Source: Propionibacteriales bacterium
GTDB lineage: Bacteria > Actinomycetota > Actinomycetes > Propionibacteriales > Nocardioidaceae
Length of the DNA: 57,139 bases
Assembly (NCBI GenBank): GCA_025929075.1
Contig: JAICMS010000003.1
Span: 1 to 57,139 of the forward strand
Direction: 5' to 3'
The position numbers were made by a program, and so were the translations under genes. How positions within the stretch are numbered: the first letter of the stretch is position 1; each line of letters starts with the position of its first letter. Positions 27,752 through 38,119 of the stretch are shown here, piece after piece. The notes below the pieces were generated by a model. It did no database searches and was not told the DNA's origin. It saw only the letters and a list, made by a program, of their open reading frames with translations.

Positions 27752-29197
27752 CTAGTGCTGACGATCGGCCCACCAGGCGAGTAGATCCTCGCGCGCTCGC
27801 TCCGCACCGAGCGGTCCTTCGTCGAGGCGAAGCTCAAGCAGGTAGCGGTAGGCCTCACCGACCGTCGGCCCCGGCGCGATCCCGAGGATGTCCATGATCT
27901 GGCGGCCGTCGAGGTCCGGCCGCATGGCCGCGAGCTCCTCGTCAGCGGCCAGCCGCTCGATCCGGGCCTCGAGGTCGTCGTAGGTTCGCCGCAACCGCTC
28001 CGCCTTGGCGGCGTTCCGGGTCGTGCAGTCGGCGCGGGTCAGCACATGGAGCCGGTCGAGGAGCGGGCCGGCGTCGCGGACGTAGCGCCGCACTGCCGAG
28101 TCGGTCCACTCACCGCTGCCGTAGCCGTGAAAGCGCAGATGCAGCTCGACAAGCCGAGAGACGCCGTCGACCTGCTCCCGCGAGAAGCGCAACGACTGCA
28201 GACGCTTGCGGGCCATCTTGGCTCCGACCGTGTCGTGGTGGTGGAACGTCACGGTGCCACCGGCCGCGAACCTCCGGGTCTTCGGCTTCCCGATGTCGTG
28301 CAGCAGAGCCGCCAGCCGGGTGATCAGGTCCGGCCCGCCGTCCGGCAGACGGTCCTCAAGCGCGATCGCCTGCTCCAGCACGATCAGGCTGTGCTCGTAG
28401 ACGTCCTTGTGGCGATGGTGCTCGTCGCGCTCCAGCCGCAGCGCCGGCAGCTCCGGCAGCACCCGATCCGCCAGCCCGGAGTCCACGAGCAGGGCGAGCC
28501 CCGGTCGCGGGCGGTCCGCCAGGAGCAGCTTGACCAGCTCGTCGCGGACCCGCTCGGCGGACACGATCTCGATGCGGCCGGCCATCGCGCGGATCGCGCC
28601 CACCACCTCGGGGGCGACCTTGAACCCGAGCTGCGCGGCGAACCTCGCCGCTCGCATCATCCGCAGTGGGTCGTCGGTGAACGACTCCTCCGGCGTCGAC
28701 GGCGTCCGCAGCACTGCCGCTGCGAGGTCGTCGAGCCCACCGAAAAGGTCGACGAACCTGCGCTCTGGCAGCTCGACAGCCATCGCGTTGACGGTGAAGT
28801 CCCGGCGACCGAGGTCGCCGGCCAGCGAGTCGCCGAAGATGACGTCCGGCTTCCGCGAGTCCGGGTCGTACGCGTCGCTGCGGTACGTCGTGATCTCTAG
28901 CCGGTGCTCGCCGATCTGAGCGCCGATCGTGCCGAAGTCCCGACCCACGTCCCACGTCGCGTCGACGGCGCCGCGCAAACATGCCTCGATCTGCTCCGGT
29001 CGAGCCGAGGTCGCGAAGTCGAGGTCCGTCCCCAGCCGGCCCAGCAGCGCGTCTCGGACCGACCCCCCCACCAGCGCGATCTCGTGACCGGCCGCCGCAA
29101 ACCGCTCGGCCACCGCGTCGACCACCGGCGCCGCCCGGACGAGCTCGCGCACGGCCGTGCGCTGGACGTCGCTCAACGACCGCCGGCTGTCGGACAC
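27752..29197 (-). CDS. CCA-adding tRNA nucleotidyltransferase
   Basis: A 481-aa protein of the class II polA superfamily: GGSVRDALLGR (44-54), the DxD metal pair in LGTDLDFAT (58-60), ARFAAQLGF and ERVRDELVKLL in the neck, and an HD domain with LLHDIGKPK. It adds or repairs 3' CCA on tRNA, which this genome needs because its tRNA-Ile gene lacks CCA. The GTG at 29197 is preceded by TAAGGT (minus strand, 29206-29211) 8 nt upstream, consistent with a leaderless message. Corresponds to Rv3907c (pcnA) and divergent from DUF6049. Confidence 0.93.
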   Translation of the reverse strand: MSDSRRSLSDVQRTAVRELVRAAPVVDAVAERFAAAGHEIALVGGSVRDALLGRLGTDLDFATSARPEQIEACLRGAVDATWDVGRDFGTIGAQIGEHRLEITTYRSDAYDPDSRKPDVIFGDSLAGDLGRRDFTVNAMAVELPERRFVDLFGGLDDLAAAVLRTPSTPEESFTDDPLRMMRAARFAAQLGFKVAPEVVGAIRAMAGRIEIVSAERVRDELVKLLLADRPRPGLALLVDSGLADRVLPELPALRLERDEHHRHKDVYEHSLIVLEQAIALEDRLPDGGPDLITRLAALLHDIGKPKTRRFAAGGTVTFHHHDTVGAKMARKRLQSLRFSREQVDGVSRLVELHLRFHGYGSGEWTDSAVRRYVRDAGPLLDRLHVLTRADCTTRNAAKAERLRRTYDDLEARIERLAADEELAAMRPDLDGRQIMDILGIAPGPTVGEAYRYLLELRLDEGPLGAERAREDLLAWWADRQH

Positions 29198-29253
29198 GAT
29201 CCACCACCTTATGGGTGCCGGTTCGGGTCGTGGGTGCGGACGCCTCGGCCCAC

Positions 29254-29259
29254 TAGGCT
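29254..29259 (+). promoter_or_regulatory. -10 element upstream of a short leaderless frame and DUF6049
   Basis: TAGGCT, separated by 6 nt (CAGACC) from a GTG at 29266. No good -35 at 17-18 bp is visible. It is the likely promoter of the DUF6049-murJ run. Confidence 0.5.
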
Positions 29260-29265
29260 CAGACC

Positions 29266-29295
29266 GTGATTCGACAGGCCGGGGGGAGTCGGTAG
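29266..29295 (+). CDS. Possible leaderless upstream peptide (9 aa)
   Basis: GTG at 29266 opens nine codons (MIRQAGGSR) and ends TAG at 29293-29295, two bases before the GTG of DUF6049 at 29298. Spacing from TAGGCT to the GTG is what leaderless actinobacterial messages show. The codons also contain the GGGGGAG that would serve as ribosome-binding site for DUF6049, so translation of the peptide could affect that of the next gene. Too short to be judged by composition. Confidence 0.3.
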   Translation: MIRQAGGSR

Positions 29296-29297
29296 TC

Positions 29298-31439
29298 GTG
29301 TCCGGCTCGTCGGCGCCGCCTCAGCGGTTGCTGCGCCGCCTCGGCGTGGCGAGCTGTGGTTTGGCGGTTCTGGTCGCCATCGTCTCACTGGTCGCGGTCC
29401 CGCCGTCGTACGGCGACAGCCTCGGCCCACAACGCGCAGCCGGACCGGGCAAGCTCCAGGTGACGATCGACACTGTGTCTCCCGCGGCGCTGAGACCGGG
29501 CGACGAGCTCCAGCTCACCGGCACGGTCACGAACCCGGACAAGATCGAGTGGCTCGACGCCCAGGTCTACCTGCTGATCTCGCCCGACCCCGCGACGACG
29601 CTGGACGGACTGCAGCAGTTCGCCGCCGTGCCCGACGACGTCGGGTTCGGGACGACGATCGTGACGTTCGGCCTGTTCGATCAGATCGGCGACCTGCCGC
29701 CCGGCGCCGAGTCCGGTTACGTGCTCACGATCCCTTACGACCAGCTGCCGATCAGCGGCGCGCCCGGCGTCTACCACGTCGGGGTCAGCGTCCTGGCCGG
29801 CACCCGCCAGGGCCGCGACATCAACTCCGACGGCCGCGCCGACACGCTCGTCCCGCTGCTGCCCAAGACACCGCCCGCCCGGTCGGCCAAGTCGGTCGTG
29901 CTGCTGCCGATCACAGCGCCGGTGAAGCGCCTCCCCGACGGCGCTTTCCTCGACGACACCCTCGCGCACTCCCTCGCCTTCGGCGGCCGACTCCGCAACC
30001 TGCTCAGCTTCGCCCAGGCCGCCCCGCCGAAGAGCGTCCAAGTGGTGATCGATCCCGCCGTACTGGCCGCCATCCAGGCGATGAGCCAGGGGTACGTCGT
30101 CCGCAGCCTCGCCGACGTGGCGGCCGGCACCAAGGGCACGCCCGGCACCGGCCGAGCCGACGCCGTCACGTGGCTGGCCGACTGGCGCGAACTGCGGGCG
30201 CGGACAACCGTGCTGATGCTGCCGTGGGGGGCCCCTGCGGTGAACTCGCTGGTCTCTCACCGTCTGGGCGGAGTAGCCCGCGCCGGCGTGGCGGCCAGCC
30301 GGCACTACGCGAGCATCACGCGGCTCAACGCGTTGGTCGCTGGCTGGCAGGCCACCAGCCGGACCACGCCGCGGTCCTTGACGCTGCTGCAACGGGCCGG
30401 GACCACCCTGCAGATTCTTTCACCCGCCAATCTGCCCGACCTTCAGCCTGCTGCCGGCCGCTCGACGCCACCCAGCGTGGTCTCCATCCCGCGACCACAC
30501 GGGTCGGTGCCGGTGCTTGTCGCCAGTCGCTCGCTGGCGGGACAGCACGTCACCCACAGCACCACCGCTCTGCAACTGCGTCAGGAACTGGTCGCCGACG
30601 CCACGGTCCGGGCGCTGTCCGGCATCGCCCACCCCGGTCTGACGGTCCTGGGCCTGCCCTTCAACTGGAACCCGGGGCCGGGCGCCGCCGGTGTGGGGCT
30701 CGACGCCGCCTTCCGGCTACCGGTGCTCGCCGGCCGGCTGGCCACCAAGGTCGTCTCGCACGGCAGTGTCGACTACACGGGCACCGTGCGGGCGCCGGTC
30801 ACCCGACAGCCTGGACTCTCGTCGGACCTCTTCGCCGCCATCCGGCGGCTCCGCGGCACGGGGACGACGTTCTCCTCGATCCTGTCCGGCTCAGACCGCG
30901 CCGGGATCACCTTCCAGCGACACCTCGCCGAGTCCGGATCCAACGCCTGGCGGTGGGCGCCTTTCCTCGGCATCTCGCTGACGAACGCCCAGGCGGACGC
31001 CGACGCCCGCAAGATCAGACACGTCACAGTGACAGGCCCGCCTTTCGTGGCGATGTCGAGCAACTCCGGCAGGTTCGCCATCACGGTGTCCAACGGACTG
31101 CGCAGTGAGGTGACGGTCCGCTTGGACGTCACCGCCCAGGACCCGGCGCTGCGCTTCGGTCCGTTGGACAAGGTGGTGCTGGCGCCTGGCCAGCGCCGCG
31201 ACATCCAGGTGATCGGCACCGCCAAGGGGAGCGGCATCACCGCCGTCCAGGCGCAGTTGGCCACTCCGCAGGGCCACCCGTTCGGCAAGCCCTGGCGGTT
31301 CGACGTCCGCACCACAGAGATCGGGCTGGTCATCTGGGGTGTGATGGGGGTGGGGGCGGCGGTCCTCTTCGTCACTGCGGGTTTCCGGATCGTCAGGCGG
31401 ATCCGAGGGGGCTGGCGCCGGCGGGGAGCCGAAGGCTGA
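29298..31439 (+). CDS. DUF6049 family secreted/membrane-anchored protein
   Basis: A 713-aa protein: a signal sequence (RLLRRLGVASCGLAVLVAIVSLVAV), a large extracytoplasmic part beginning with an Ig-like beta domain (LQVTIDTVSPAALRPGDELQLTGTVTN), a central domain, a second beta-sandwich near 590-690, a C-terminal membrane helix (IGLVIWGVMGVGAAVLFVTAGF) and a basic tail. It corresponds to Rv3909, always next to murJ, so an accessory role in lipid II flipping or wall growth is likely but unproven. GTG at 29298 with GGGGGAG about 9 nt upstream. Its TGA overlaps the murJ ATG (TGATG). Confidence 0.85.
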   Translation: MSGSSAPPQRLLRRLGVASCGLAVLVAIVSLVAVPPSYGDSLGPQRAAGPGKLQVTIDTVSPAALRPGDELQLTGTVTNPDKIEWLDAQVYLLISPDPATTLDGLQQFAAVPDDVGFGTTIVTFGLFDQIGDLPPGAESGYVLTIPYDQLPISGAPGVYHVGVSVLAGTRQGRDINSDGRADTLVPLLPKTPPARSAKSVVLLPITAPVKRLPDGAFLDDTLAHSLAFGGRLRNLLSFAQAAPPKSVQVVIDPAVLAAIQAMSQGYVVRSLADVAAGTKGTPGTGRADAVTWLADWRELRARTTVLMLPWGAPAVNSLVSHRLGGVARAGVAASRHYASITRLNALVAGWQATSRTTPRSLTLLQRAGTTLQILSPANLPDLQPAAGRSTPPSVVSIPRPHGSVPVLVASRSLAGQHVTHSTTALQLRQELVADATVRALSGIAHPGLTVLGLPFNWNPGPGAAGVGLDAAFRLPVLAGRLATKVVSHGSVDYTGTVRAPVTRQPGLSSDLFAAIRRLRGTGTTFSSILSGSDRAGITFQRHLAESGSNAWRWAPFLGISLTNAQADADARKIRHVTVTGPPFVAMSSNSGRFAITVSNGLRSEVTVRLDVTAQDPALRFGPLDKVVLAPGQRRDIQVIGTAKGSGITAVQAQLATPQGHPFGKPWRFDVRTTEIGLVIWGVMGVGAAVLFVTAGFRIVRRIRGGWRRRGAEG

Positions 31440-33109
31440 TGGGCCGATCCGACTCCTCCGGAGTCCTGTCCGCCAGCACCGTGATGGCCGCGGGCACCAT
31501 CGTCTCGCGGATCACCGGGTTCGTGCGAAGTGCCCTGCTGGCGGCGGCGATCGGGCTGACCACTGCACACGCCGACCTCTTCAACGTGCCCAACACCATT
31601 CCCAACAGCCTTTACATCCTGGTCGCCGGGGGCATCTTCAACGCCGTACTGGTGCCGCAGCTCGTCCGGGCGATGCGCAACGACCCCGACGGCGGTGACG
31701 CCTACGCCAACCGGGTGATCAGTCTGGGCGCGATCGTGCTTGCCGGTGTCACCGCGCTGCTCATCGTCATCGCACCCCTGCTGCTGCGGCTGTTCGTGAG
31801 CGGCGAGTACTTCGCCGACCCCGACCTTGCCGGGGAGCAGAGCTCAATGATCGCCTTCGCCAGGTTGTGTCTGCCACAGATCTTCTTCTACGGCATGTAC
31901 GTGCTGATCGGCCAGATCCTCAACGCTCGTGGCCGGTTCGGGCCGATGATGTGGGCCCCGATCGCAAACAATCTGGTGGCGATCGGAACGATCGCGATCT
32001 ATTTGGTGGCGTACGCCGACAGGCCGGCCACGGGTGCCTACACCGCTGGACAGGAGGCGCTCCTCGGCGTCGGCTCCACTGTCGGTATCGCCCTGCAGGC
32101 ACTTCTCCTGTTGCCCTACCTCAGGCAGACGGGGTTCGTCGTGAGGCCGCGGCTGGACTTCCGCGGGACCGGGCTCGGCCACACCTTGCGGCTGGGGCTC
32201 TGGACGATCGGCTTCGTGATCGTCAACCAGATCGCCTTCTTTGTGATGACGCATCGGGCGACCTCGGCCACCGCCGACAGCACCCATGGAGCCGGCTACT
32301 CGGTCTACGCCAGTGCCTTCCTGCTGACCCAGGTACCGCATTCGATCGTCACCGTGTCGCTGGCGACCGCGACGATCCCGCTGGTTTCCCGGCTCGCCGC
32401 CGAAGGCCGGCTCGGCGAGCTCTCCGCAGAGCTGTCGCGCACGCTTGAACTCGTCCTGGTGGTGATCGTCCCGGTCGCCGTCGGCCTGCTGGTCCTCGGG
32501 CCGGCGATGGCCACTGTGGTGTTCGGCTGGGGCGCAGCCGCCGGCCACACCACGAGCCTGGGTACGACGTTGATCGCCTTCGCTCCCGGGACGTTGCTGT
32601 TCAGCATGCACTACGTGATGCTCCGCGGCTTCTACGCGATCGAGGACACCAAAACGCCGTTTCTGATCCAGTCGCTGGTGGCTGCCGTCAACATCGCGCT
32701 GGCCATCGGACTGACCCTCATCGTGTCGCCGGACCTGGTCGCGCCGATGCTCGCGCTGGCGTACGGCGCCAGCTATGCCGCCGGCGCCACGGCATCGGCC
32801 ATCGTGCTCTCAAGTCGGCTGGGCGGGTTCGGCGGTCACCCGCTGGTGCGGTTCGTCGTACGAGTAACCGTGGCGTCGCTGCCGGCAGCAGCGGTGGCGT
32901 GGCTGGTGGTGCGCGTGCTGGGCGCCGCGGGCTTCGCCGTCACCAGCCGGGGAGACGCCGTGGTCCTCATCTGCTGCGGTGGGCTCGCCGGAGGCGGCGT
33001 CTACCTCCTGTTGGCGCGGCTGATGCATATCAGCGAGATCACCAGCCTGGTGCGCCTGCTCGTCGGTCGGGCGGTCGGCCGTCGCCCACCCGCGGCGAGC
33101 GAGTCCTGA
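31439..33109 (+). CDS. murJ: MurJ-type lipid II flippase (MviN)
   Basis: A 556-aa polytopic protein with about 14 hydrophobic segments and the MOP/MurJ opening (ASTVMAAGTIVSRITGFVRSALLAAAIG, then ADLFNVPNTIPN). Other conserved runs are LNARGRFGPMMWAPIANN and MLRGFYAIEDTKTPF. It moves lipid II across the membrane for peptidoglycan synthesis. In Mycobacterium the same protein carries a C-terminal pseudokinase and extracellular domain; here it stops after the membrane part, and those domains are encoded by the next gene. Confidence 0.95.
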   Translation: MGRSDSSGVLSASTVMAAGTIVSRITGFVRSALLAAAIGLTTAHADLFNVPNTIPNSLYILVAGGIFNAVLVPQLVRAMRNDPDGGDAYANRVISLGAIVLAGVTALLIVIAPLLLRLFVSGEYFADPDLAGEQSSMIAFARLCLPQIFFYGMYVLIGQILNARGRFGPMMWAPIANNLVAIGTIAIYLVAYADRPATGAYTAGQEALLGVGSTVGIALQALLLLPYLRQTGFVVRPRLDFRGTGLGHTLRLGLWTIGFVIVNQIAFFVMTHRATSATADSTHGAGYSVYASAFLLTQVPHSIVTVSLATATIPLVSRLAAEGRLGELSAELSRTLELVLVVIVPVAVGLLVLGPAMATVVFGWGAAAGHTTSLGTTLIAFAPGTLLFSMHYVMLRGFYAIEDTKTPFLIQSLVAAVNIALAIGLTLIVSPDLVAPMLALAYGASYAAGATASAIVLSSRLGGFGGHPLVRFVVRVTVASLPAAAVAWLVVRVLGAAGFAVTSRGDAVVLICCGGLAGGGVYLLLARLMHISEITSLVRLLVGRAVGRRPPAASES

Positions 33110-33285
33110 CCTCACCCAGACCTTCCTTGCGTCCTGCAACCAGAGCGCGATAGCGCCCCGCCTGCAGGACGTTGGTGAGAGAAAGCGCCGAAGTAATGGA
33201 GAAGTTCGGCTCCTGCCAGCGCCTACGATTGACCGGAACGGGAACAACCACTCCTCGAGGGGAGCGCTGGCAAGGCGGGAGGGAA

Positions 33286-34839
33286 GTGGACACCGACTCC
33301 ATCGCGCCGGGCACCGTGCTCGCAGACCGCTACGTCATTGAGGACCAGCTCGAGGAGGACGGCGAGTCGGAGTCGTTTCGCGCCCATGACAAGATCCTGG
33401 CCCGATCTGTCGTCGTTCACGTTCTGTCGTCCGCTTCCCCCTTGGCCGCTGGCATGCTTGATGCAGCAAAGCGGGCGTCTCGGGTCACCGACCCGCGCAT
33501 CCTGCAGGTGCTCGATGCCGTCGATGATGGTGAACACAGCTATGTGGTCAGGGAGTGGGTGACCGGCCGGTCGCTCGACGTGGTACTCGGCGAAGGCCCC
33601 CTACCCGCCCACCGGGCCGCCTCCCTGATAGCGGAGGTCGCGGCGGCGATCTCGAGCGCTCACCGCGCCGGGCTCGCGCACCAACGCCTCTCCCCCGACG
33701 CCGTCGTCCTGACTGCCTCCAGCGGCGTCAAGGTGATCGGGCTGGGAACCTTTGCTGCTCTCCGGTCCGCCACCTTCGAAGTCGATGATCCGGAGGCCGC
33801 CGACGCCCGCGATCTAGGCCGGCTGCTCTACGCCTGTCTCACCGCCCGCTGGCCGGGTGGGGACTGGGGTGACCTCGCCGCGGCTCCCACTGAGCACGGC
33901 CGGTTGCTCCGACCCAGACAGGTCCGCGCCGGCGTACCGCGGTCGCTCGACATGCTGTGCGACCGGATCCTTGGTGACCCGCCGCGGGCTGGGCGCCCGG
34001 TCACCACGGTGGACGAGGTGCGGTCGTCGCTGTCCACGATCCTGACCAACAATGGCTTCACCGAGGCGTCGGCGCCGCAGCTGATGGCGCCCGTCGTGGC
34101 CGAGGTCGGGCCGGCCGCGCCACCGCCAGCACTGCTTGCGCTCGACAATGACGGTCCGGTGACCGGCGAGCAGGCGGCGATCACGCTGCCGGGCCAGGGT
34201 GGGGACTCCCGCACTCGCCATACCCTCCTGCTGGCCGCCGTCGCTGTCCTCGTCGTCGGAGGGCTGCTGCTCGCCTATCTCGTCGGTCGCCACGGCCTCG
34301 GCCAGACGCCTCCTGCCGAGGCGAAGACCGGTGTGCAGCACCGGACACCACCGGCGACGACGACCCAATCGCCCGCGACGCACCCCCTCCCGATCAGCTC
34401 GGCGACGGCGTTCGACCCCCCGCCGGGCAACGGCGTCGAGAACTCCGGCGAAGCCGATCTGGCGATCGATGGCAGCAAGCAGACCGCTTGGACCACGATG
34501 ACCTACTACAACTACCCGAACTTTGGTCGCCTGAAGCCCGGTGTCGGGCTCATCCTGGACCTTGGCCGGCAACAAGAGGTCACCACGGTGACGCTCCGGC
34601 TGGTCGGTGAGCCCACCGGCGTGCAGGTGCGCGCCGCCCCGGCCAGCGCGGCCCAACCGCCAGACACCACTGCCGGTTTCCGGCTCGCTGCGACCCGACC
34701 GCGCGCCGGCACCGTCACGAGCATCGCGCTCGCGAAGCCGGTGACGACGAGGTTCGTGCTGGTCTGGCTCACCTCGCTGCCGAGCGAGGGGGGCAACGCG
34801 TACCGCGGCGGCATCGCCGATGTCACGATCCGCGGTTGA
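33286..34839 (+). CDS. Membrane-anchored pseudokinase with extracellular beta domain (MurJ partner)
   Basis: About 517 aa. Residues about 12-270 align to a Ser/Thr kinase fold but lack catalytic residues: the VAVK lysine is His (SVVVHVL), HRD is HQR (LAHQRLSPDAVVL), and DFG is GLG (VIGLGTF). A membrane helix follows (TLLLAAVAVLVVGGLLLAYLV), then a Pro/Thr linker and a discoidin-like domain (GSKQTAWTTMTYYNYPNFGRLKPGVGLILDLG). This is the kinase-homology plus carbohydrate-binding-like half of mycobacterial MviN as its own gene. The GTG at 33286 is uncertain; an ATG at 33196 would add 30 residues. Confidence 0.8.
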   Translation: MDTDSIAPGTVLADRYVIEDQLEEDGESESFRAHDKILARSVVVHVLSSASPLAAGMLDAAKRASRVTDPRILQVLDAVDDGEHSYVVREWVTGRSLDVVLGEGPLPAHRAASLIAEVAAAISSAHRAGLAHQRLSPDAVVLTASSGVKVIGLGTFAALRSATFEVDDPEAADARDLGRLLYACLTARWPGGDWGDLAAAPTEHGRLLRPRQVRAGVPRSLDMLCDRILGDPPRAGRPVTTVDEVRSSLSTILTNNGFTEASAPQLMAPVVAEVGPAAPPPALLALDNDGPVTGEQAAITLPGQGGDSRTRHTLLLAAVAVLVVGGLLLAYLVGRHGLGQTPPAEAKTGVQHRTPPATTTQSPATHPLPISSATAFDPPPGNGVENSGEADLAIDGSKQTAWTTMTYYNYPNFGRLKPGVGLILDLGRQQEVTTVTLRLVGEPTGVQVRAAPASAAQPPDTTAGFRLAATRPRAGTVTSIALAKPVTTRFVLVWLTSLPSEGGNAYRGGIADVTIRG

Positions 34840-34875
34840 CGCGCGCGCCCGCTCCTGTCCGAGCCTCACGATGGT

Positions 34876-34902
34876 GGGAATCAAGCAGCCATAGGATCTG
34901 TT
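34876..34902 (+). promoter_or_regulatory. SigR/SigH-type promoter of trxBA
   Basis: GGGAAT (34876-34881), 18-bp spacer, GTT (34900-34902, followed by GG). This is the consensus of the thiol-oxidative-stress sigma factor of actinobacteria, which controls trxBA in Streptomyces. It lies 60 bp before the trxB start. Confidence 0.8.
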
Positions 34903-34962
34903 GGACTGCACGCCGGCCGGGAGCATCCGGGGCCGGCGACTCGAATCCAGAGTGAGGTCAGC

Positions 34963-35925
34963 GTGTCCGACGACGTGCGCAACGTCATCATCATCGGCTC
35001 CGGACCAGCCGGTTACACGGCTGCCGTCTACGCCGCGCGGGCCGATCTGCACCCGCTCCTGTTCGAGGGAGCCGTCACCGCCGGTGGGGCATTGATGAAC
35101 ACCACCGAAGTGGAGAACTTCCCGGGATTCCCCGACGGCATCATGGGCCCCGCGCTGATGGACGACATGCGCCGACAGGCGGAGCGCTTCGGCGCCGAAC
35201 TGGTCACCGACGACGTCACCGACGTCGACCTCAGCGGCGAGGTCAAGATCGTCCGCGACAGCGCGGGCAACTCCCACCAGGCCCGGTCTGTCGTGCTCGC
35301 GATGGGGTCGGGCTACCGCAAGCTGGCCCTGCCTGACGAGGAGCGGCTGTCGGGCCACGGGGTGAGCTGGTGCGCCACCTGCGATGGGTTCTTCTTTCGC
35401 GGACAACACATCGCCGTCGTTGGCGGTGGCGACTCCGCGATGGAGGAGGCGACCTTCCTGGCGAAGTTCGCGAGCAAGGTCACCGTCGTCCACCGCCGTG
35501 ACAGTCTGCGGGCCAGCAAGATCATGGCCGCCCGCGCAACAGCGAACGACAAGATCGAGTTCGCCTGGAACTCCGAGGTCGCCGGGCTGCTCGGCGCCGA
35601 TCGGCTCAAGGGCCTCGTGCTGCGTGACACGGTCACCGGTGCCACTCGCGAGCTCGACGCAACCGGGCTCTTCATCGCGATCGGTCACGACCCCCGCTCA
35701 GAGCTCGTACGCGGACAGGTCGACCTCGATCCGGCCGGCTATGTGCTCGTCGCGTCCGGGAGCACCAGGACCAACCTCGACGGGGTCTTCGCCTGCGGCG
35801 ATCTGGTCGATCACACCTACCGGCAGGCAGTCACCGCGGCCGGCACCGGGTGCATGGCGGCGCTGGACGTCGAGCGCTTCCTCGCCGCCAAAGAAGACGC
35901 AGAGGTTGTCGCCGTCGCCCCATAA
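34963..35925 (+). CDS. trxB: Thioredoxin-disulfide reductase
   Basis: A 320-aa flavoprotein: FAD-binding GSGPAG (12-17), redox-active Cys137-Ala-Thr-Cys140, NADPH-binding [15 protein letters not shown], and the C-terminal FAD segment [23 protein letters not shown]. It reduces thioredoxin with NADPH. GTG start at 34963. It is followed 86 bp later by trxA, forming a trxBA operon under a SigR-type promoter. Confidence 0.97.
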
Positions 35926-36011: not shown

Positions 36012-36341
36012 ATGAGCGGCCTGAAGGCTGTCACCGATGCGGAGTTCCAGTCCGAGGTCCTCGAGCAGGACAAGCCCGTGCTCGTCGACTTCTGGGCAGA
36101 GTGGTGCGGTCCGTGCCGGCAGGTGGCGCCGATCCTCGACGAGATCGCGGCCGAGCACAGCGACAAGATGGTTTTCCGCTCGCTCAACGTCGACGAGAAC
36201 CAGTCCACGACCGCGCGCTACCGGGTGACCGGCATCCCGGCGATGAACGTATACAAGGGCGGCGAGCTGGTGCGCTCGATCGTCGGCGCCCAACCGAAGG
36301 CGGCTTTGCTGCGTCAGCTGTCGGAGTTCATCGACTCCTGA
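36012..36341 (+). CDS. trxA: Thioredoxin
   Basis: A 109-aa thioredoxin with the WCGPC active site (Cys32, Cys35), the cis-proline in GIPAMNVY and a normal length. It is the electron donor for protein disulfides and enzymes such as ribonucleotide reductase. The ATG at 36012 has AAGGAG at 36001-36006; a longer frame from 35937 is rejected because of that site. Its stop codon and that of the convergent GNAT gene lie in a single palindrome. Confidence 0.97.
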   Translation: MSGLKAVTDAEFQSEVLEQDKPVLVDFWAEWCGPCRQVAPILDEIAAEHSDKMVFRSLNVDENQSTTARYRVTGIPAMNVYKGGELVRSIVGAQPKAALLRQLSEFIDS

Positions 36342-36350
36342 GCCGGCTCA
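36339..36350. other. Palindrome holding two convergent stop codons
   Basis: TGAGCCGGCTCA: its first three bases are the trxA TGA and its last three are the TGA of the opposite-strand GNAT gene. Only six bases separate the stops. Confidence 0.9.
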
Positions 36351-37022
36351 GTCCGGGCTCAACTCCTCCCGGGGACTGACCCCGATCGGGCCCGCCCCCT
36401 TGTCGGGGATGATCCGGCCGGGTCGGATGGCGCCCAGCCATCGCTCCACGGCGACCTCGACATCGTCACGCCAGCTGAGGACGCTGCGCAGGTCGAGCCG
36501 CAGCCGTGGGTAGCGCGGATGCGCTTGGACTGTGCGGAAGCCAACAGCGGTGAGGAACCCGGTCGGAACCAGACAGCGGTTCTCGTGTCCTTGGGCGTCG
36601 CCGAACACCTCGACGGCCCTGACGCCTCGACGCCGGGTGAGGTCCTTCACAACCGATTGCATGAGGACCCTGCCCAGCCCTCCGCCGCCGTAGCCGGGCA
36701 GGATCCGGGCGGTCAGCAGCAGGACGGCATCGTCGCTGACCGGCGAGGCCATCGCCGCCTGCGCGCCCTCGGCGTACTCCGGAGGCGCGTAGAGGGCGAA
36801 GCCGGCGATCGAGCCGTCGACGTACAGGAGCCGGCCGCAGCTACCCCAGTCCAACAGCACCGCCGAAAGCCACTCGTCCTTAGTCCTGGCCCCGTCCTGG
36901 GCCGTCCCGTCGGCGTCTAGGTATCCCGGTCGCGAGCCGAGCTCCCACAAGGTGCAGGACCGACAAGGGGCCGGTAGGTCGGCGACGTTGTCCAAGGTCA
37001 GCGATGTCAGCTTGCGACCCAT
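36348..37022 (-). CDS. GNAT-family N-acetyltransferase
   Basis: A 224-aa protein. An N-terminal Cys-x2-Cys (APCRSCTLWELG) is followed by a GNAT core: LLYVDGSIAGFALYAPP, LLTARILPGYGGGGLGRVLMQSVVKDL (acetyl-CoA loop) and VFGDAQ-GFLTAVGFRTVQ. The substrate is not known. A GNAT gene convergent with trxA and upstream of parB is a constant feature of the Streptomyces origin region. Only 6 bp separate the two convergent stops. Confidence 0.85.
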   Translation of the reverse strand: MGRKLTSLTLDNVADLPAPCRSCTLWELGSRPGYLDADGTAQDGARTKDEWLSAVLLDWGSCGRLLYVDGSIAGFALYAPPEYAEGAQAAMASPVSDDAVLLLTARILPGYGGGGLGRVLMQSVVKDLTRRRGVRAVEVFGDAQGHENRCLVPTGFLTAVGFRTVQAHPRYPRLRLDLRSVLSWRDDVEVAVERWLGAIRPGRIIPDKGAGPIGVSPREELSPD

Positions 37023-37189
37023 GAGGAGCGTCCGTTCATCCGCGTTGTGGGGCCCTGGTCCAGGCTGCCATCGTAGTGCTCAGCGCCCGTGGCTAGCTGG
37101 CATGTCCACCAGTCGACAGGTCACTTAGTCGACAAAGCGATGAACCGGTTTAGCGCTGAGCCGACAGAGCAACGGGCCACCACATCGAC

Positions 37190-38119
37190 TCATCCACCCG
37201 CGCCCGCGGCGCCACCGGGATCCATCACCTGCAAGATCCGTTGCAGGTCGTCAAGGGAGGCGAACTCGACGGTGATGGCGCCCTTCGTCCGGCCCAACCG
37301 CACCTTGCACCTCGTCTCGAACCGCTCGCTCAGCCGTGCGGCGATCTCCGTGAGTCCCGGCGCCACCGGCCGGGCACGCGGAGTCCGAACCGCCTGGTCG
37401 TCGGCGGCAGGAAGGCTGACCAGTTCCTCGAGTCCGCGTACCGAGATGCCCTCGGCGACCGCGCGCTCGGCAAGTGCTTCCTGGCGCGCCGGGTCATCGA
37501 GCGCCAGCAGCGCGCGGGCATGGCCGGCGGAGAGAACGCCAGCGGCTACCCTCCGTTGCACCTTGGCCGGTAACTTCAGCAGCCGCAAGGTGTTGGAGAT
37601 CTGCGGCCGGGACCGGCCGAGCCGGCTGGCGAGGTCCTCGTGCGTGCAGCCGAAGTCATCGAGGAGCTGTTGATAGGCCGCAGCCTCCTCGAGTGGGTTG
37701 AGGTTCGCCCGGTGCAGGTTTTCCACGAGCGCGTCCCGCAGCATGGCGTCATCTGAGGTCTCGCGGACGATCGCCGGGATCGTGGTCAGGCCGGCCTGCG
37801 TCGCTGCGCGCCATCGCCGCTCGCCCATAACCAGCTCATAGGAGCCGTCTGCGATGGAGCGGACCACGACCGGCTGCAAGAGCCCGATCTCCTGCACCGA
37901 CGCCACCAGCTCGGCCAACGCATCTGGTTCGAACTCCGAGCGGGGCTGTCGTGGGTTCGGCACGATCGCCCCGACCGGAACCTCCGCGAAGTGTGCGCCG
38001 GCGACGTCAGCCGGTCCCGCCGCTGCGACCTCCGTGACCGCATCGCCGGTCGCCTGTTTGGCGCCGGTGGGGATCAGGGCGCCGAGCCCGCGCCCGAGCC
38101 CACGTTTGGTCGTGGTCAT
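37190..38119 (-). CDS. parB: Chromosome-partitioning protein ParB
   Basis: A 309-aa ParB/Spo0J. N-terminal CTP-binding domain with [13 protein letters not shown] and GERRWRA, an arginine-rich [21 protein letters not shown] stretch, a helix-turn-helix ([26 protein letters not shown]) and a C-terminal dimerisation region ([24 protein letters not shown]). It loads on parS and recruits SMC. The start overlaps the parA stop (ATGA). Two parS sites are close by. Confidence 0.97.

Follow-up and report, generated by a model that had tools for sequence, protein, structure and literature searches.

How the lipid II flippase MurJ is regulated is an open matter, and in mycobacteria, where flippase and pseudokinase are fused in one protein, the roles of the two are hard to separate. 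According to passages in PMC10166564, PMC11898655 and PMC6180346, the kinase PknB phosphorylates T947 of M. tuberculosis MviN (Rv3910; structures 3OTV, 3OUK, 3UQC and 3OUN) and FhaA docks there, and PMC6180346 further describes binding of CwlM to the MurJ linker E541-F680; statements in PMC12599244 place the kinase-homology domain of Rv3910 in family ActPs3, give LSIDHPSR as its motif and have the aromatic residues F724 and W789 filling its ATP pocket. Here we describe a stretch of 57,139 nucleotides from a soil-dwelling Propionibacteriales bacterium, a metagenome-assembled genome of the Nocardioidaceae whose nearest named sequences are likewise Nocardioidaceae MAGs (assembly GCA_025929075.1, contig JAICMS010000003.1; the whole stretch is hereafter the window), in which MurJ is followed by a separate gene for a pseudokinase with a predicted membrane helix and outer domain. 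Our leading account, in which we place roughly even credence, is that this protein is a dead, glycan-sensing receptor regulating MurJ, or the neighbourhood of MurJ, in trans.

The two-gene arrangement had been proposed in an earlier note on this DNA, and its coordinates hold (Table 1), the two frames lying on the same strand and differing in phase. The flippase is securely identified as MurJ (PF03023 at 264.7 bits, cut-off 27.4; TIGR01695 at 298.2, cut-off 235.55); the family profile stops at residue 539 and the protein itself at 556, and no counterpart of the E541-F680 linker is found in it. That note had also raised the possibility of a sequencing frameshift in the gap, an artefact that is ruled out as a simple cause by the stops, the frames and independent assemblies: downstream of its own TGA the frame of MurJ is interrupted by another three stops in 33110-33286, and the pseudokinase frame is closed upstream, opening at about 33154, i.e. 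past the MurJ stop, so that a single indel cannot join the two. Separate frames on one strand recur in 77 of 80 named loci, these being the best 80 of 165 relatives and leaning to the window's own kin. A longer pseudokinase frame from TTG-33172 was rejected as an over-extension, its homologues starting at the same place as GTG 33286, and a scan of the gap found no sigma-70-type promoter or terminator pattern.

The domain that follows has lost its catalytic motifs in the way that the earlier note had read them, with VVVH in place of VAIK (His for the ATP-lysine), HQR for HRD and GLG for DFG, and from these motifs it would be catalytically dead. Its proposed homology to the MviN domain is supported: phmmer matches it to 3OTV/3OUK at 3.5e-10 and a fold search with the AlphaFold model of the whole protein (mean pLDDT 86.6) retrieves the chains of 3ouk, 3oun, 3uqc and 3otv at Z 22.2-22.9 (3otv_D 22.9, 3oun_B 22.6). 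The Ser/Thr kinases PknA and PknB outrank these chains, with Z of about 25 and up to 25.9, which we do not take as evidence against the MviN kinship; they present the closest kinase fold and the likely ancestry of the pseudokinase, which differs from them in lacking the ATP lysine, the catalytic Asp and DFG and in bearing a CBM32-like instead of a PASTA outer domain. With MviN the window protein shares the fold, the layout of a pseudokinase followed by helix and outer domain, the lost motifs, the tie to MurJ, a shortened activation segment (about 17 PknB residues are unmatched in the pseudokinase family profile) and the tryptophan of the W789 position, which is W91 here and W in 77 of 89 aligned proteins. 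Unlike MviN, it is encoded by a gene of its own, has Ser (S30) at the position of F724, and reads HQRLSPDA where MviN has LSIDHPSR. An assignment to ActPs1/Act1, for which Nocardia U5EIF8 with its Hqrlrads string is the example in PMC12599244, was considered and not adopted. Three other loci (L197, L203 and L208) retain the lysine and the DFG Asp and have lost the HRD Asp, a mixture that suggests stepwise decay of a kinase.

Mean pairwise identity is 48-49% in the kinase lobes, 41% in the outer domain and 29% in the linker, where 73% of positions are gaps; the conserved core is the pair of folded domains, the dead kinase and the outer domain. The loss of all three catalytic motifs might also be expected of a decaying relic without function, a reading to which we attach next to no probability given that 78 of the 80 named loci hold a closed pseudokinase frame of 501-676 aa (the other two run off contig ends) and that the folded domains are conserved over the class.

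The earlier note's membrane helix and outer domain are both present in AlphaFold models, the latter, modelled alone, reaching a pLDDT of 97.5 as a jelly roll. Its nearest solved structures are the chitosan-binding CBM32 modules 4zz5 (Z 16.0, 2.1 A over 121 residues) and 4zxe (15.7), with which a Bifidobacterium fucosidase domain ties at Z 15.1-15.3 (Foldseek was run as well). Independently of structure, a sequence profile of the domain reaches 2v72 (0.0021) and 4zz5 (0.0078), and the core D-G-D-x-x-T-x-W is common to it and to CBM32 / F5_8 type C domains. It is set apart from these by being tethered to the membrane on a pseudokinase. We propose a single-pass receptor whose pseudokinase lies in the cytosol and is joined through a flexible linker to one membrane helix, with the CBM32-like domain outside. 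A glycan of the cell wall, possibly a peptidoglycan strand or the sugar of lipid II, would be the ligand of the outer domain, and within the cell the pseudokinase would act as a scaffold for MurJ and/or PknB. The protein could then act in trans as a regulatory subunit of MurJ, with which it may be in physical contact in this organism, or of the surrounding peptidoglycan machinery, control presumably running from receptor to flippase.

Table 1. Features of the MurJ and pseudokinase locus, in positions of the window
Feature	Position	Strand	Details
Upstream DUF6049 protein	29157..31439	+	PF19516 102.9 bits (cut-off 30.1); stop overlaps MurJ start
MurJ lipid II flippase	31439..33109	+	ATG start, TGA stop, 556 aa; lacks the linker and pseudokinase that extend M. 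tuberculosis MviN C-terminally
Intergenic gap, 176 nt	33110..33285	+	Separates MurJ from the pseudokinase gene
Stand-alone pseudokinase receptor	33286..34839	+	GTG start, TGA stop, 517 aa
Cytosolic pseudokinase domain, residues 1-258	33286..34059	+	VVVH45, HQR (132-134), GLG (152-154), shortened activation segment, W91
Juxtamembrane linker, residues 259-308	34060..34209	+	Low model confidence, poorly conserved; no Thr site of the FhaA/PknB type under the definition applied
Single membrane helix, residues 309-337	34210..34296	+	AlphaFold model
CBM32-like / F5_8C-like beta jelly-roll outer domain, residues 367-517	34384..34836	+	

Relatives were sought with an alignment query together with the pattern [RSL]PRQVRAGV, an earlier one-protein query having given no matches; the invariance of that motif in alignment A2 (54 of 56 non-redundant named rows plus the window; A3 leaves out the short rows L202 and L204) therefore exists by construction. 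Among 39 genomes searched, the window's own included, 37 hold the pseudokinase protein, and the other two (G015 and G017) gave only ordinary kinase-like matches. The comparison of fused and split forms that the earlier note had called for now shows separate genes in 31 family codes across the class and fused forms in 15 loci of three, f2 (3/4), f7 (5/5) and f21 (7/7), f7 being Mycobacterium-like to judge from its LSIDHPSR motif; no fusion occurs among the f1 loci checked, and no pseudokinase stands beside MurJ in f34 (4/4) or f25 (2/2). Long open frames in G010 and G023 were taken up as candidate fusions and dismissed, MurJ and pseudokinase actually occupying different, overlapping frames there. 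Of the 77 named loci with separate genes, two (L111 and L187) have just a MurJ remnant on the contig (49 and 66 bits). Among the relatives examined, then, the split is the common state and not an oddity.

The sole fused locus among the 80, L133, comes from a Propionibacterium metagenome-assembled genome, and propionibacteria are not known to have arabinogalactan. The separate-gene arrangement is in substance already in print: the S6 Fig legend of PMC10166564 (PLoS Genet 2023) has a 'protein kinase family protein' gene frequently downstream of unextended mviN, very probably the same gene as ours given its identical place and partner. Where PMC10166564 confines the fused form to organisms with arabinogalactan, L133 and f2 speak against such a restriction, as perhaps does f21. 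For the class-wide history of split and fused forms, our searches of openly licensed papers brought up no description.

That history was followed in two trees of a quick kind, whose roots were not inferred. The MurJ tree has 76 rows (61 split, 15 fused) and leaves out by choice L041, L048-L050 and L057-L059, which are partial or near-copies, and L090-L094, L097 and L098, where the pseudokinase is missing or doubtful; it is also without L192 and L203, and L042, L067, L089, L195 and L196 hold no MurJ. The pseudokinase tree has 78 rows, 11 of 89 having been dropped (L041, L048-L050, L057-L059, L065, L082, L094 and L199). The fused label requires three changes on the MurJ tree, at least two of them forced by starred branches, and four on the pseudokinase tree, at least three of them forced; a single clade of all fused rows is rejected on the MurJ tree (p-value of the approximately unbiased test, p-AU, 0.000141). 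The same two proteins have thus been fused on separate occasions, which argues for a functional partnership between them.

Were the split in the window secondary, arising by fission of a fused ancestor, one would expect traces such as G028, which probably represents a fusion undone within a clade of fused forms, and would welcome the fact that the fused rows of f2 and f21 may form one clade (p-AU 0.182, not rejected). Such an ancestor would, though, need many separate fissions, for the split is found in 31 family codes against three with fusions, and f1 shows no fusion in the loci checked, all of which makes fission a very improbable origin for the present arrangement. We would rather suppose, with some hesitation and well short of even confidence, that the stand-alone form came first in the class Actinomycetes, as a glycan-sensing regulator of lipid II export in which a CBM32-like outer domain reads peptidoglycan and a dead kinase acts in trans, that fusion and the phospho-FhaA switch are derived, and that active receptor kinases have taken up the same sensor. 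In our leading account, too, the one-protein form of mycobacteria would, with its phospho-Thr/FhaA switch, have been added later to an older module. As a separate matter, f21 belongs to a different order from the window, but the MurJ and the pseudokinase of its fusions each fall within the clade of the window's order, through either joint transfer or true kinship.

The receptor account has to contend with a number of observations that weigh against it. Regarding the partnership with MurJ, two named loci (L135 and L141) have no MurJ within 5 kb, several families leave 0.4 to 2.9 kb between MurJ and pseudokinase, room for another gene, and G019 has the two about 225 kb apart. In G028 they stand on different contigs, the pseudokinase nesting in the fused f2 clade (93, 99 starred) and the MurJ grouping with f31 (99 starred), so that the partner can evidently be exchanged; at the old place the pseudokinase is immediately preceded, by eye, by DUF6049-like and nucleotidyltransferase-like genes, MurJ not intervening, and G028 (L067, L107) looks like a fusion undone with its MurJ replaced. 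Regarding the sensor, F5_F8_type_C scores 18.3 bits on the outer domain, under the Pfam cut-off of 28.2, and eukaryotic jelly rolls of the IFT25 type and PP25 come nearly as close as CBM32 (Z 14.6-14.7). The domain is missing from 20 of 148 class genomes, and the module is therefore dispensable in some lineages; in three more (G040, G044 and G117) the sole match either lies on something other than a pseudokinase or is open to doubt, being on a kinase-less protein in G040 and G044 and, in G117, in a 1668-aa frame (6.6e-7) that probably encodes an unrelated sugar-binding protein. Finally, that the mycobacterial fusion looks derived and the split older is a parsimony argument on unrooted trees. 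L042 (from G019), L135 and L141 are Aeromicrobium-type loci, in which the pseudokinase adjoins thioredoxin reductase and MurJ is elsewhere.

The outer domain occurs in 128 of the 148 class genomes (single copy in 123, two copies in five), a count of genomes with the domain, whether or not it sits on a pseudokinase. Most MurJ-linked pseudokinases examined have it, the f8 protein L199 being an exception: L199 and L218 (G065, family f8) show a pseudokinase next to MurJ whose frame of 338 aa lacks the outer domain, in a small genome. It also sits on other proteins. G106 is a Mycobacterium-like genome of f7 with a fused MviN of its own; there a Ser/Thr kinase in which HRDVKPEN and TDFG are intact (L211:2375-4153) carries the MviN-type outer domain, and could possibly be an active partner or a competitor for the same ligand. 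In f17, L089 (G119) and L196 (G149) likewise combine this outer domain with a Ser/Thr kinase whose motifs are intact; by eye they adjoin a DNA polymerase III alpha-like gene, apart from the MurJ-linked pseudokinases of the same genomes (L216 and L217). L089 was considered as an orthologue of the pseudokinase and rejected, since it lies away from MurJ in a genome that has L216 next to MurJ. L212 (G047), L214 (G044) and L215 (G063) are single-pass proteins with the outer domain and no kinase domain. An outer domain common to dead and intact-looking kinases would fit a sensor role; our searches of openly licensed papers brought up no description of this domain on active kinases.

The same facts bear on a different reading, whereby the pseudokinase mainly regulates active PknB through a back-to-back heterodimer of N-lobes, the outer domain provides an extra ligand input and MurJ is a mere neighbour. 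PknA and PknB as nearest folds, the same outer domain on intact-looking kinases and the retention of the pseudokinase where MurJ has moved or been replaced would all suit it, and PMC12599244 states that the MviN domain dimerizes back to back, as canonical kinases do. It leaves unaccounted for the repeated fusion to MurJ and the usual adjacency of the two genes; fusions to PknB were not met, though no search aimed at them. We consider this reading unlikely and keep to a receptor that would regulate MurJ or its neighbourhood in trans, for which organisms with two genes, together with the natural moves and replacements of MurJ, allow separate deletion and complementation.

A third possibility, that matters stand here as in M. 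tuberculosis, PknB phosphorylating a tail Thr, the FHA domain of FhaA docking and lipid II export being restrained, with the genes merely unfused, corresponds to the phosphorylation-controlled, FhaA-binding adaptor of the earlier note. The partners that it requires are there: the window genome has an FhaA (FhaA_N, 2.4e-40) that matches 2lc0 and, in its FHA domain, 3oun_A, and the same cluster holds, by eye, the frame of a PknB-like kinase whose motifs are intact and which the contig end truncates. The site is not. All five f7 fused proteins have Thr-[Asp/Glu]-x-[Ile/Leu] just after the last kinase helix, landing exactly on residue 947 in two rows when numbered from MviN F724; by the same definition no T947-type Thr site exists in the window protein or in its three nearest homologues. 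In the 79 proteins that do not belong to f7, a Thr next to an acidic residue and with a hydrophobic one at +3 turns up 0.78 times per protein, twice the 0.37 of shuffles, and 33 of the 79 have at least one such candidate, counts that near-copies inflate; a candidate SQMD-ET-VAVA/IAVA site recurs in all five f3 rows, and SQMD-ET-VAVA is conserved in Kribbella.

The remaining component of the switch, CwlM, was not found in the window genome (93.86% complete) at E 1e-8 with a Nocardioides query, a protein which we take to be CwlM from its domains and place. This query gave strong matches (E < 1e-60) in 10 of 31 genomes and only weak ones (1e-8 to 1e-12) in five; the only Amidase_3 protein of the window genome is without a peptidoglycan-binding domain by Pfam. 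Across the 148 genomes, FhaA and the outer domain occur together in 126 and are both absent from 12 (all f25), with FhaA only in eight and the outer domain only in two; this co-occurrence is largely one clade's joint loss, and we draw little from it. FhaA thus persists without the outer domain in eight genomes, two of which (G042 and G065) still have the kinase part. With no Thr site, no MurJ linker and CwlM not found, the mycobacterial switch is not transferable as it stands: the case for a phospho-FhaA mechanism in the window protein is weak, and we judge a merely unfused copy of the M. tuberculosis system quite improbable. Caution should accordingly be exercised in carrying the FhaA model over to other actinobacteria, the comparison suggesting that the dead kinase and the outer glycan-type domain are old features and that fusion and the Thr site are mycobacterial additions.

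As regards the wider neighbourhood, Kribbella (L146) has genes for a sigma factor, an anti-sigma factor and a CwlM-like protein at the places corresponding to 34839-34963 and 36341-37190. The window lacks them there, and between thioredoxin and parB it holds only a GNAT-like gene (19.9 bits, just missing the Pfam cut-off of 20.7). Two record titles among the relatives look wrong, in that L165, titled Spirochaetaceae, holds an actinomycete locus, and L179, titled Streptomyces sp. SID13031, is Kribbella-like.

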